DNA of 52,446 nt from Lysobacterales bacterium (GTDB lineage Bacteria > Pseudomonadota > Gammaproteobacteria > Xanthomonadales > Marinicellaceae). Position 1 is the first letter of the stretch. Each line of letters opens with the position of its first letter. Positions 15,944 through 21,386 of the stretch are shown in pieces. The notes beneath the pieces were generated by a model. It was not told the DNA's origin. It saw nothing but the letters and a program-made list of their open reading frames with translations, and did not search any database. The position numbers and the translations under genes are program-made. Location: positions 1-52,446 of the forward strand of contig JALSLV010000064.1 of NCBI GenBank assembly GCA_026988115.1, in the 5' to 3' direction.

Positions 15944-17143
15944 ATGCCCATTTTAAAACAAATAAACAAGGCACTCGTGCCTATTAAGATTTACACCAAT
16001 GACATCAATTCAAAAGCAATTGATCAGCTGGTTAATATTGCCAATTTACCGATTGTGCACCATCATGTGGCAGCGATGCCCGATGTGCATGTTGGAATTG
16101 GTGCAACCGTTGGTTCGGTTATTCCGACACTCAATGCCGTTATTCCCGCCGCCGTTGGCGTGGATATTGGTTGTGGCATGAATGCTGTGCGTACCAGTTT
16201 GAAAGCCAGTGATTTGCCAGATAATTTATACAGTATCAGGCGAAATATCGAGCGATTGATTCCTGTGGGCTTTAATTGGCACAGCCGTGCGGTGGTCAAA
16301 TCATCAACCGTGAAGGCGCTTGATAAACCACTTGATGAAATTTTGTATAAGCATCCAAGCATTGCTAAGATGTTTCGCACCTTTCATCAAACATGGCATC
16401 GACAACTCGGCACTTTGGGTGGCGGCAACCATTTCGTTGAAATCTGTTTGGATGAAAACGATGAGGTGTGGATTATGCTGCACTCAGGTTCTCGTGGGGT
16501 TGGTAATGCCATTGGTCGTTATTTTATCAACTTGGCACAAAAAGATATGCAAAAACATCAGATTCATTTACCTGATAAAAATTTGGCTTATCTTAATGAA
16601 GGCACGCAATATTTTGATGACTACGTACAAGCAGTTAACTGGGCGCAAGAATACGCCTGGATAAACCGCCGTGAGATGATGAAATTAGTGGTTAATGCCT
16701 TAGGAGCATCAAAACTACCAAAGTTTACCTTAACCAAAAAAGCGATAAACTGCCACCATAATTATATTTCTTATGAAAGCCATTATGGTCAAAAAGTTTA
16801 TGTAACGCGTAAAGGTGCAATCAGTGCCCAAGTCGATGAGTTGGGAATAATCCCTGGTTCCATGGGAGCCAAATCATTTATTGTCAGAGGCAAGGGTTCA
16901 AAAGCCTCGTTTTGTTCGTGTTCGCACGGTGCTGGACGGGCGATGAGTCGAACCCAAGCCAAAAAGCAATTTAACGCCCTTGATTTGCAAATGCAAACCA
17001 GTGGTGTTGAATGCCGCAAAGACAAAGGTGTAGTGGATGAAATCCCAAGTGCTTACAAAGACATTGATGCGGTAATGAACAACCAACACGATTTGGTGTC
17101 TATAGAACACACGCTTAAACAAGTGGTGTGTGTAAAAGGTTAG
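15944..17143 (+). CDS. rtcB: RNA-splicing ligase RtcB
   Basis: GTP-dependent RNA ligase that joins 2',3'-cyclic phosphate (or 3'-phosphate) ends to 5'-hydroxyl ends in RNA repair. Length is 399 residues, typical of the short bacterial form. Metal-binding and active-site motifs are present: PDVHVGIGATVGS, VGVDIGCGMNAVRT, LGGGNHFVEI, HSGSRGVGN, and CSHGAGRAMSRTQA with the guanylylated histidine at residue 328. A ribosome site, AAAGGAAAG, lies upstream. It follows an attenuator-like leader and precedes a small basic gene. I see no rtcA or rtcR here. Identification is firm; the cellular substrate is not known. Confidence 0.96.
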   Translation: MPILKQINKALVPIKIYTNDINSKAIDQLVNIANLPIVHHHVAAMPDVHVGIGATVGSVIPTLNAVIPAAVGVDIGCGMNAVRTSLKASDLPDNLYSIRRNIERLIPVGFNWHSRAVVKSSTVKALDKPLDEILYKHPSIAKMFRTFHQTWHRQLGTLGGGNHFVEICLDENDEVWIMLHSGSRGVGNAIGRYFINLAQKDMQKHQIHLPDKNLAYLNEGTQYFDDYVQAVNWAQEYAWINRREMMKLVVNALGASKLPKFTLTKKAINCHHNYISYESHYGQKVYVTRKGAISAQVDELGIIPGSMGAKSFIVRGKGSKASFCSCSHGAGRAMSRTQAKKQFNALDLQMQTSGVECRKDKGVVDEIPSAYKDIDAVMNNQHDLVSIEHTLKQVVCVKG

Positions 17144-17151
17144 AACAAATA

Positions 17152-17178
17152 CGTCATTCCTGCGCAGGCAGGAATCTA
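17152..17178. repeat. half copy of the CATTCCTGC dispersed repeat
   Basis: CGTCATTCCTGCGCAGGCAG followed by GAATCTA is a small hairpin of the same family as 15846-15913. It lies directly after rtcB and before the ribosome site of the next gene. Confidence 0.6.
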
Positions 17179-17196
17179 ATTAAACAGGAGAAAACC

Positions 17197-17457
17197 ATGA
17201 AAAAGGTAAGAAACGTGGTCGCACGATTAGCCATTATGAAAAAAGGTGGCGTGCATGATAAGACCAACAAAGCCAAAAGATGCAAGCAAAAACAAAAGCT
17301 GCAAAAACAAATAAGGACCAATAATTTTGGTTCTTATTCTTTGATGCTACAACTTCGTTTCAGTTGTTTCCCACGTCGGCAATTTGACGGTAATTCTTGT
17401 TTGATTTTCTGTTGTTGTGTCAAGAGAAATACTTCCATTCTGAATTTCAGCGCATAA
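17197..17457 (+). CDS. small basic protein; frame runs through its own terminator
   Basis: The ATG at 17197 has a good ribosome site (CAGGAG, 7 bases upstream). The first 40 codons give a very basic peptide, KKVRNVVARLAIMKKGGVHD and then many Lys/Arg residues. It resembles small gammaproteobacterial proteins of unknown role, and its charge is in the style of RNA- or ribosome-binding peptides. The frame does not stop before the hairpin at 17313-17335 but continues to 17457, overlapping the 3' end of the convergent kinase gene. A second copy of the 3' part (20591-20679) has a TAA just before the same hairpin, so the stop was probably lost here (CTG-TAA versus CTG-CAA). Natural product length is therefore uncertain. 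Confidence 0.55.
   Translation: MKKVRNVVARLAIMKKGGVHDKTNKAKRCKQKQKLQKQIRTNNFGSYSLMLQLRFSCFPRRQFDGNSCLIFCCCVKRNTSILNFSA
17254..17342. repeat. 89-bp direct repeat, copy 1 (3' end of small gene plus terminator)
   Basis: About 90% identical to 20591-20679. It covers the last codons of the small basic gene and the hairpin AAGGACCAA-taatt-TTGGTTCTT (17313-17335). The two copies flank the kinase and cyclase genes in direct orientation. Confidence 0.85.
17313..17342 (+). terminator. terminator hairpin after/inside the small basic gene
   Basis: Stem AAGGACCAA / TTGGTTCTT with one G-U pair, loop TAATT, then ATTCTTTG. The T tract is weak. The hairpin lies inside the open frame of the small gene in this copy but after a stop codon in the second copy. 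Confidence 0.5.
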
Positions 17458-18992: not shown

Positions 18993-20462
18993 TTACACAT
19001 GAGAAATACCATTATAGTAGACAAACCGATGCTTGCCTCCATGTTTTGCCTTGTACATTGCATCATCTGCAAATTTAATCAATTCATCCGTTTTTTTGCT
19101 GTTATCAGGATAAATAGAGACACCAATACTTAAAGAGACTGTGACTGTATCGTGGTTAATGGTTATGGGTTGGTTTGTTACGACTAATATTTTTTTCAAA
19201 ATAGAGTTAAGTGCTTCATTGGTTTTTATATCCACAAAAATTAATAAAAACTCATCTCCACCTAAACGTAGCAAAAGGTCATCAGCTCTTATGTTGTTTT
19301 GAATTCTTTTTACTGTTTGCTTTAAAACTTCATCACCAAAATTGTGTCCATATGTATCGTTGACTTGCTTAAAACCATCTATATCAAAAAAACAAACAGC
19401 ACTTCTGGTTTGGTATAAGTGACCTAAGGAAACAATATGTTGCATGTGTTCTTTTAACAAATTTCGGTTGGCTAGCCCAGTTAAATTATCATACAAAGCC
19501 ATTGACTTTAATTTTTCCTCCACCACTCTTTTTTCATCAAACAGAGTGCCAATAATAAGAACGAGCAGGATATGCGACAAAATATAAAAGTTTAAATCAA
19601 TGATATTATCAATATTGGAGTGGTGTTGAAAAACACCTGTGCCTTTAAATGTTGCATACAAAGCGATAATTGCAATGATAATTGTCGCAATATAAGCCGT
19701 TGTAATGTTACGAAAAGCTGCAATGAGTACAACTATTGGCATGGTTAAACATAACAAGATTGGTAAACTTTTTATTGGAAAAAGGACGAGTATTAAGTAG
19801 TTTAATACTAAGAAAAAGCATACAGTTAACGTCACATCTCTTAAACTTAAATCTTTGCCATGCGCATAAAGCAATAGCAAAAATGGCGTAAAGAGTATTT
19901 GCCCGATAGCATTACCAAACCACCAAGAAAAAACATTTTTGTAAAAAGAAGAACTATTAGAAACATCAAAAACTAATAAAATAAAATTGCCCAAAATAGA
20001 ACTAAAAGGCTGTAATACTAGAACAATCAACAACAATAAACCAATAACGTCTCTGAGGTGTTTCAGTGATTTATCCAAACCAAAATAGTTGAATAAACTC
20101 ACGGCAATTAGAGCCTCAATAGAATTAACCGCAGAGATAAGAATAGCAGGATAAAAATGCATATTAGTACTAAGAGCAAGAATCAATTGCCCAAAAAAGA
20201 TACCAAGCCATAGTTTTCTGCCAAAAATAAGAACAGCAGCCAAAGCAAAACCCTCAGATGCAAAGTAAACTATGGTAACAACAAGATCATTACCTGCTAT
20301 CATAAAACTTAGCTTTCCAGATACAAAGTACACTAAAGCCAGGATAGAAATTTGGATGAGGTAAAAAACAGGCTTAATTAAGTAAATTGAAAGGCCAAAA
20401 ATAGTAAACAATATTTTATTGCCAGATTGAATCATTTCTGAAATGAGAATCCTTGTTTGCAA
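18993..20462 (-). CDS. MASE1-domain diguanylate cyclase (GGDEF)
   Basis: A 489-residue membrane protein. A MASE1 sensor occupies about residues 25-320 and a GGDEF domain about 325-485. The catalytic GGDEF is intact near 401-405. Exactly five residues before it lies RADD, the RxxD inhibitory site that lets c-di-GMP turn the enzyme off. It should make c-di-GMP from two GTP at the membrane, with product inhibition. The membrane part is clearly paralogous to the neighbouring kinase (SEGFALAAVLIFG against PEGFALAGVILFG). One sensor type therefore seems to have been joined to two different outputs. Confidence 0.92.
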   Translation of the reverse strand: MQTRILISEMIQSGNKILFTIFGLSIYLIKPVFYLIQISILALVYFVSGKLSFMIAGNDLVVTIVYFASEGFALAAVLIFGRKLWLGIFFGQLILALSTNMHFYPAILISAVNSIEALIAVSLFNYFGLDKSLKHLRDVIGLLLLIVLVLQPFSSILGNFILLVFDVSNSSSFYKNVFSWWFGNAIGQILFTPFLLLLYAHGKDLSLRDVTLTVCFFLVLNYLILVLFPIKSLPILLCLTMPIVVLIAAFRNITTAYIATIIIAIIALYATFKGTGVFQHHSNIDNIIDLNFYILSHILLVLIIGTLFDEKRVVEEKLKSMALYDNLTGLANRNLLKEHMQHIVSLGHLYQTRSAVCFFDIDGFKQVNDTYGHNFGDEVLKQTVKRIQNNIRADDLLLRLGGDEFLLIFVDIKTNEALNSILKKILVVTNQPITINHDTVTVSLSIGVSIYPDNSKKTDELIKFADDAMYKAKHGGKHRFVYYNGISHV

Positions 20463-20590
20463 ATCTATTGGTCTTTATACCTTAAAAAAATGCTCAAAGC
20501 AATGTTTCTTGATAAAACACTTAATCAGGTGTGTTCTAGGACTCTATTAAGTAGATTAATTTGCATACTGATTTATAAAAAAATTACTCT

Positions 20591-20679
20591 CATGATAAAA
20601 GCAACAAAGCCAAAAGAAGCGCACAAGAACAAAAGCTGTAAAAACAAATAAGGACCAATAATTTTGGTTCTTATTCTTT
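20591..20679. repeat. 89-bp direct repeat, copy 2 (truncated small-gene 3' end plus terminator)
   Basis: Matches 17254-17342. In the frame of the small basic gene this copy reads HDKSNKAKRSAQEQKL and then stops, followed by the identical hairpin. The sequence upstream of 20591 is unrelated to the gene's 5' part, so this is a remnant without a start. Confidence 0.85.
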
Positions 20680-20688
20680 TGTGTGTTA

Positions 20689-20973
20689 ATATTAACCCTG
20701 CTAGATAATACTGTTCATCAGGAGTTAAAGAAATTCCCATATCAAGGCGTAGCCTGCAATTAATGGTTGTTCCCTTGATAAAGGCTACAACGCTGAGATG
20801 GGGATTTCTTTAACTCCCTATCTTGTTGAAATAAAAATGAAAGGTCTAATCCTATTGGCTCTTGGACTGCGTTATCAGCATTTGATATAGGATGGCTAAA
20901 CCTTCATGCTGATGCCTTGCCAAGAACAAATAGGATTAGACTGATGTGCGGTATTATCTAGTAGGGTTAATAT
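20689..20973. other. 285-bp three-way-junction element with pseudoknot potential
   Basis: The outer stem pairs 20689-20721 with 20941-20973 (29 of 33 positions), opening with ATATTAACCCT and closing with AGGGTTAATAT. Arm 1 pairs 20721-20743 (GGAGTTAAAGAAATTCCC...) with 20795-20817. Inside it, TATCAAGG (20740-20747) pairs with CCTTGATA (20773-20780), and GTAGCCT (20749-20755) pairs with AGGCTAC (20782-20788). These two interleave as a pseudoknot. Arm 2 pairs GTCTAATCCTATT (20844-20856) with 20929-20941, then CTTGG with CCAAG, then ATCAGCAT (20874-20881) with ATGCTGAT (20906-20913). It encodes no protein. It could be a structured RNA or a complex MITE. I do not recognise it. Confidence 0.75.
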
Positions 20974-21002
20974 CTGCTCAAAAATACATTACGGAAAGAA
21001 CT

Positions 21003-21386
21003 ATGAAGAAACTCACTTTCAATTTAATTTTACTGGCATCATTTATGCTATTAACCTCGTGTACGCAATTTGGGCCTGAGCAGACTCAAGCATGGGATAA
21101 AATTGATAAAGGAGCTTTAATTTTAGATGTGAGAAGCAAACAAGAGTTTGAGGAAGGGCATTTGGCTCATGCGATTAATATTGAATACGAAAACACTCCA
21201 AAACTTGTTAAAAGAATTGGAAAAAACAAAGAGCGTTCGGTGGTTTTATATTGCCGTTCGGGTCGTCGGGCTTCTGTAGCCTTGGCAGAATTGAAGAAGT
21301 TGGGCTATAGCAATGTTTTTAATGGTGGTGGATTAAAGGCTATGAAAGCGGCTAAAAAAGAGCATGAAAAGGCAAAAATGCAATAA
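21003..21386 (+). CDS. rhodanese-domain lipoprotein
   Basis: A 127-residue lipoprotein. The N-terminus MKKLTFNLILLASFMLLTSC ends in a lipobox with the modified cysteine at residue 20. The rest is a single rhodanese domain: ILDVRSKQEFEEGHLAHAINIEY, then the active-site loop CRSGRRA with Cys84. Such proteins transfer sulfane sulfur or bind sulfur compounds in the periplasm. I chose 21003 over a GTG at 20946 because the lipoprotein signal starts here and the earlier start would lie in the palindromic element. A terminator follows. Confidence 0.88.
   Translation: MKKLTFNLILLASFMLLTSCTQFGPEQTQAWDKIDKGALILDVRSKQEFEEGHLAHAINIEYENTPKLVKRIGKNKERSVVLYCRSGRRASVALAELKKLGYSNVFNGGGLKAMKAAKKEHEKAKMQ

Follow-up and report, generated by a model that had tools for sequence, protein, structure and literature searches.

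The window analysed here, a 52,446-nucleotide stretch of DNA from a Lysobacterales bacterium (contig JALSLV010000064.1, positions 1 to 52,446), contains a strongly folding sequence upstream of a lipoprotein gene, raising the question of what kind of element this is and whether its fold serves a function. Its limits were set by comparison with a congener (G006), which carries the orthologous rhodanese-lipoprotein gene but lacks the element. The empty site in G006 reads GTGTGTTAATATCTGCTC, the window reads GTGTGTTAA-TA-element-TA-TCTGCTC, and the window flanks joined at the TA correspond to the G006 sequence with scattered differences only. Therefore, the element occupies positions 20692 to 20970 (279 bp) with a TA on either side. 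The preliminary description had given 20689 to 20973 (285 bp), limits that were corrected on the basis of the TA duplication and the empty site, and it had proposed examining strains lacking the element for a flanking duplication, which was found in the form of this TA. The features of the locus are as follows, with bit scores from covariance model R3 and F denoting the acting orientation (both introduced below).

20591 to 20679, + strand: one copy of an upstream 89-bp direct repeat
20690 to 20691, no strand: left TA target duplication (empty site in G006)
20692 to 20721, + strand: left terminal repeat, TTAACCCTGCTAGATAATACTG...CAG, 29/33 matches to the right end
20721 to 20817, + strand: arm 1, with the conserved hairpin core at 20724 to 20814 in F orientation on the + strand (90.4 bits)
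20740 to 20747 with 20773 to 20780, + strand: crossing stem of the preliminary description, TATCAAGG with CCTTGATA, present
20818 to 20843, no strand: linker between the arms, from folding and repeat search
20844 to 20941, - strand: arm 2, with the conserved hairpin core at 20848 to 20937 in F orientation on the - strand (68.5 bits)
20941 to 20970, - strand: right terminal repeat, from repeat search and folding, 20/22 outer bases identical to the end of an IS630 relative
20971 to 20972, no strand: right TA target duplication (empty site in G006)
21003 to 21386, + strand: rhodanese-domain lipoprotein gene (PF00581, E 3e-17), ATG 30 bp after the TA duplication

The architecture first reported was recovered by repeat search and folding, namely an outer inverted repeat of 33 bases with 29 matches and two hairpin arms of about 97 nt each, separated by a linker of about 25 nt. 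The three-way-junction fold of the 279-bp element is real and far beyond chance: folded as RNA it reaches -128.8 kcal/mol, whereas shuffled sequences average -65.1 (z -13.3), and folded as DNA it has a z of -12.1; 0/200 shuffles were as low in either case. Among open reading frames of at least 80 aa, only the start of 20946-21386 overlaps the element, and that frame is the rhodanese gene. The element had been placed between a terminator and a lipoprotein gene; the gene was confirmed, and the supposed terminator proved to be the end of one copy of the 89-bp direct repeat. The two copies (17254-17342 and 20591-20679, 81/89 identical by local alignment) flank two MASE1-domain genes, encoding a histidine kinase and a GGDEF protein. 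By eye, the region upstream of the rhodanese gene in G006 resembles the end of RtcB and, after it, a single repeat of this kind, and the two MASE1 genes therefore look inserted or duplicated in the window. The frame 17128-17457 had no Pfam match. A short palindrome, GTCATTCCTGCGCAGGCAGGAATC, follows rtcB at 17151-17178, with a similar one upstream of the rhodanese gene in G006, and by its look is a separate dispersed repeat. In a further genome (G003, bases 1-90 of L144/L076), a different sequence ending CAGGGTTAA lies directly at the same TA before the rhodanese orthologue; situated at a contig start, it is perhaps another element in the same site.

The ends of the element were compared with insertion sequences (IS) in the same genome. 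Contig C53 carries an IS, bounded by TCAACCCCGCGACATAATACCGC and TTAACCTAGCGGAATAATACCGC, whose 344-aa transposase is intact and contains DDE_3 and HTH_33 domains. A second IS630 relative was found at contig ends only; apart from the intact copy, 17 fragments are C-terminal and 14 are N-terminal. One of its ends, TTAACCCTGCTAGATATTACCG, matches each end of the window element at 20/22 bases. This relative was collapsed by the assembler to 31 contig-end fragments, which account for many of the breaks in the draft genome. Elements of the genome were told apart by their ends as type A, with the ends of the window element; type B, with ends TTAACCCCGCGATATAATACCG, present in several copies and with one end 22/23 like that of the C53 IS; and type C, with ends TTAACCTTGCTAGATATTACC, present in two full copies. 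A blastn search with the window element, all match lengths counted, gave 42 matches in its own genome, and relatives were detected in 9/10 congeners, in 0/2 same-family genomes of other genera and in 1/8 genomes of other families; no blastn match was obtained in phages or plasmids.

The element is thus short and without a transposase gene, shares its ends with IS630, is bordered by a TA duplication, and has dispersed copies, as is typical of IS630-type MITEs. Judged by its sequence, it is a non-autonomous IS630 (Tc1/mariner-type) transposon, that is, a MITE. It is highly likely that window-type elements have been moved by an IS630 transposase in this genus; such an enzyme, encoded elsewhere in the genome, would recognise the element ends and move the element in trans. 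The mobile-element-like nature that had been suspected was borne out by the IS630-like ends, the TA duplication, and the empty site. Of the proposed "nested transposon relic," the transposon stood, and "relic" appeared too weak a word for an element whose ends, TA duplication, and likely cognate IS630 are all present.

Arms 1 and 2 were found to be homologous copies of one hairpin of about 91 nt, mutually inverted. Covariance model R1 was built from six arms, and R2 and R3 from wider arm sets, R2 being trained on R1 matches and R3 on R2 matches. Conservation of the fold was scored on A6, a MAFFT alignment of 108 arms dereplicated at 80% with rows chosen by the models (alignments A2-A5 and A7 were fitted to models). 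In A6, the covariation score was 0.877, against 0.224 in shuffled and at most 0.228 in slid alignments; 87.5% of cells were paired (52.7% shuffled, at most 43.6% slid), and 1362 cells were changed on both sides compared with 438.8 in shuffles. At least one change on both sides was seen for 32/32 predicted pairs (28.4/32 in shuffles), and the number of standard pair types, 132 against 130.8, showed no excess. Compensatory changes in the stems are therefore present across the 108 arms. The preliminary description had taken an absence of both further copies and such changes as counting against it, and both were found. The same alignment revealed an internal loop, with CAAGGC on one side and AAC on the other, that is invariant or nearly so. 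The paired boxes of attC sites are RYYYAAC/GTTRRRY; on inspection of the 108-arm alignment, the 5' side of the loop was CAAGGC, which does not fit an attC box.

Two perfect stems in arm 1 had been reported to interleave as in a pseudoknot. Both are present in the letters, but the crossing stem is not kept in relatives, and the conserved inner stem of arm 1 is GTAGCCT (20749-20755) with AGGCTAC (20782-20788). At the positions of the crossing stem, 53.8% of cells were paired compared with 53.1% in shuffles, and covariation was 0.122 compared with 0.115, no excess in either measure; the number of pair types alone exceeded shuffles (22 against 17.8). Crossing runs of at least 7 were seen in only 2/93 arms with CAAGG (8 in the window, 7 in L182), with a mean run of 3.9 against 3.4 shuffled. 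A pseudoknotted RNA was accordingly rejected, and the pairing of TATCAAGG with CCTTGATA is probably fortuitous. A T.C mismatch recurs at the tip (AATGG..CCCTT) in 20/108 arms, and in some arms such a tip would leave CCTTG free to meet CAAGG, which hardly varies.

The mismatches within the stems carry information on strand, since a G.T mismatch on one strand appears as A.C when the opposite strand is read. In 133 modules dereplicated at 85%, the outer stem contained 28 GT and 169 AC on the module strand (122 modules used, with 9 weakly paired modules and 2 near locus ends skipped), and the inner stem contained 7 GT and 57 AC; the p-values of 9e-26 and 8e-11, respectively, are nominal because the sequences are related. 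Dereplication at 75% gave 4:33 for the inner stem (pairs 2-8). Wobble is therefore tolerated, and A.C is not, on the reverse complement of the module strand, termed the F strand, where the G.T:A.C counts are 169:28 and 57:7. By class, GT:AC on the module strand was 2:20 in arm 1, 2:17 in arm 2, and 3:18 in singly detected modules, and this common sign excludes a chromosome-strand effect. A further mismatch count used the structure predicted for the F strand and leans towards F, the 28:169 and 7:57 counts being cleaner. The end repeats of two-hairpin elements, used as a mismatch control, gave 69 GT and 66 AC, symmetric by construction, and those of singly detected elements gave 46 GT and 10 AC on the F strand; because of this asymmetry and the built-in symmetry elsewhere, end repeats are no clean negative control. 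Strand-biased mismatches point to a folded RNA or single-stranded DNA, as a double-stranded function does not predict such a bias. Hence, the arms are very probably maintained as a folded single strand, for which RNA and single-stranded DNA appear about equally likely.

The distribution of the module was examined within Pseudomonadota, to which all module searches were confined. R1 matched 18/41 relatives, two of which belong to another genus and gave 68 and 54 matches. Among gammaproteobacterial species genomes, R2 matched 83/369, and R3, some of whose training arms came from the 369-genome sample itself, matched 144/369 (115/272 genera). At phylum level, R2 matched 60/398 genomes, of which 35 were within Gammaproteobacteria (own genome included) and 25, from two families, were outside it. 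The class-wide R2 and R3 searches and the phylum-wide R2 search scored only 11 to 14 candidates in each genome; copy numbers are accordingly minimum values, and the model E-values are rough. With R3, both hairpins were found in inverted arrangement in plasmids of Pseudoalteromonas shioyasakiensis and Azotobacter chroococcum, and a single hairpin in a Pseudomonas aeruginosa plasmid; no annotated features lay under these matches in PLSDB, whose annotation is incomplete. Partial blastn matches occurred in Vibrio and Photobacterium plasmids, that in Photobacterium covering 43 bases only, and the L177 element gave no blastn match in plasmids. Rfam matches to window positions 20400-21200 numbered 14, all below the gathering threshold; nine source sequences gave no Rfam match, and 20 source sequences gave three tRNAs only, away from the elements. 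The module represents a folding family that is widespread and strongly conserved in Gammaproteobacteria and that Rfam does not cover.

DDE_3 transposases did not co-occur with the module class-wide, being detected in 36/144 carriers and 53/225 noncarriers (p 0.80), a comparison in which IS630 relatives may escape the DDE_3 model and the ends of other families may be involved. The elements may outlive their transposases, other enzymes may move them, or the model may miss some. The module was absent from the C53 IS itself (locus L057, model R3). Eleven widely spaced hairpin neighbours were found as candidate autonomous parents; locus L336 was inspected and rejected as a parent carrying the hairpins, as its intervening gene looks by eye like what we take to be a tRNA-protein transferase.

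Across genomes, the core is common to elements with many different ends. Among 268 modules from the collected loci, 77/81 close pairs were in -/+ order, and 72/82 gaps fell into two classes, 41-44 and 59-61 nt. Of the 73 two-hairpin elements whose ends could be detected, 58 have an end repeat that stops at CAG ahead of both arms, and 50 have TA on both outer sides. The left ends were sorted by greedy clustering into 43 groups, with some groups representing a single end in shifted registers. CTAG, the IS630 target, was common among element flanks. Certain elements carry a single hairpin, with ends of the GG..CTCTGAT type, which presumably occur in other IS families. By eye, the linker is often a mini-hairpin, CCCGAAGGG or CCCTTCGGG (L127, L180, L181, L189, L196, L123, and others), which is missing from the window copy. 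The minus strand of the type B linker (L004, L011) contains AATCAACAAGTTG, which we take to be a full match to the IHF consensus, matched less well by type A and C linkers; this IHF-site-like match, judged by eye, is presumably a likeness to Correia/NEMIS elements. Three type B copies (L003, L010, and L011, in G000 C14, C79, and C37) have common flanks beyond the element (TTATGTATTTAAACTTGACAGGTCAAAACA), so the type B MITE sits within a larger repeat there.

The best explanation overall, to which we assign a probability of about 0.6, is an IS630 MITE with two inverted hairpin modules that fold as single strands and are read in trans. Because of the inversion, reading inward from either flank always meets a hairpin in the F orientation first. 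A putative trans-acting factor would read the hairpin and its CAAGGC/AAC loop when the element is transcribed or single-stranded, and this reading would serve the element and not the neighbouring gene. The chances that the arms are read by such a factor for the element's own benefit appear evenly balanced. We would give similarly even odds to the wider proposal that the arms are an undescribed, phylum-spanning family of single-strand elements (RNA or single-stranded DNA) that ride on MITEs with varied ends and act via a factor reading CAAGGC/AAC.

The simplest competing account is that of an ordinary MITE with passive hairpins, near-palindromes that hairpin-templated repair or template switching keeps alike and that spread by horizontal transfer only. 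The MITE hallmarks, stems that drift freely in sequence yet stay paired, and the absence of a gene-orientation bias are all consistent with it, but passive palindromes would be expected to show neither the strand asymmetry of mismatches nor a nearly invariant unpaired loop, and the core is common to elements with many different ends; we consider this account unlikely. Less probable still is a cis-acting RNA element in host messages that receive the MITE, through processing, stability, termination, or antitermination. A folded single strand with wobble pairs, an acting hairpin first from either side, and the position of the window copy 30 bp before a gene would all suit such a role. Against it, singly detected hairpins were co-directional with tandem genes in only 18/44 cases, a set in which the "one" elements (70/103 rows) include two-hairpin elements whose second hairpin the model missed, and in 4/16 of a stricter single-hairpin set (p 0.08), a tendency, if any, against a useful cis role. 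Genes in this test were called by a simple ORF rule, and an element was dropped if it lay near a locus end, repeated flanks already represented, or lacked a gene within 500 bp on each side. The orientation test was thus negative and lends no support to a role in host mRNA. In the stricter single-hairpin set, the F strand was antisense to the gene on its 5' side in 19/28 cases and to tandem genes in 12/16, neither being significant.

It is equally improbable that the hairpins are single-stranded DNA recognition sites of a recombinase (HUH/Y1 or tyrosine), like REP or attC, giving a second route of movement. Strand-specific conservation of a single strand and the occurrence of one- and two-hairpin forms with different ends would fit such sites, as would hairpin pairs inverted as in the REP/BIME arrangements described in the accessible part of PMC2817692; however, the window copy has a TA duplication and IS630 ends, the arm alignment lacks a GTAG-type foot, and an unsystematic look noticed no recombinase gene beside the hairpins. 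The trans-read MITE module remains the preferred reading. MITE interiors are usually treated as filler; the interior described here has kept its structure in many bacterial families on elements whose ends vary. The mismatch spectrum points to one strand that is folded and read, making selection on MITE cargo directly testable, and the module supplies both a structured family for annotation libraries and a search target, the hairpin-reading factor. If the wider proposal is true, MITE interiors would gain a selected function and, at 144/369 species, the arms would be among the commoner structured noncoding families of the class.

A literature search that covered few subscription journals returned no recognised description of the conserved hairpin core, and the words IS630 and hairpin are absent from the available main text of a 2024 review of prokaryotic MITEs (PMC10969869). 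The earlier statement that no family with this layout is described thus holds for the core, which has neither an Rfam match nor a recognised description, and not for the layout, as RUP and CIR have been described. The following comparisons draw on the accessible parts of the sources cited. The MITE in the Thiomargarita dsrA intron, compared by description only, is likewise TATA-ended, with a long hairpin, and from a gammaproteobacterium (PMC4853749). Correia/NEMIS elements are also TA-ended MITEs, and the accessible part of their description includes no conserved hairpin pair (PMC2229807). REP/BIME and RAYT systems share dispersed hairpins in alternating orientation; the REPs listed in PMC2817692 measure about 20-40 nt and have a foot of the GTAG or TGTG type, whereas the arms here reach about 91 nt or more and carry their motif in an internal loop, and inspection of the 108-arm alignment showed neither type of foot. 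The CerM-associated intergenic repeats (CIR) of Caulobacter and Brucella are two-arm repeats (PMC2229807), and the element here likewise has two long hairpin arms and a linker. In CIR, however, GANTC lies at the terminal loop, whereas here the internal loop is CAAGGC/AAC, GANTC is not among the conserved columns, and the ends are of IS630 type. RUP, a described IS630-type MITE thought to be mobilised by IS630-Spn1, is similarly a small noncoding repeat with IS630-like ends and a TA target (PMC2229807), but it measures 107 bp, whereas the element described here is 279 bp long and carries two conserved inverted hairpins common to many families.
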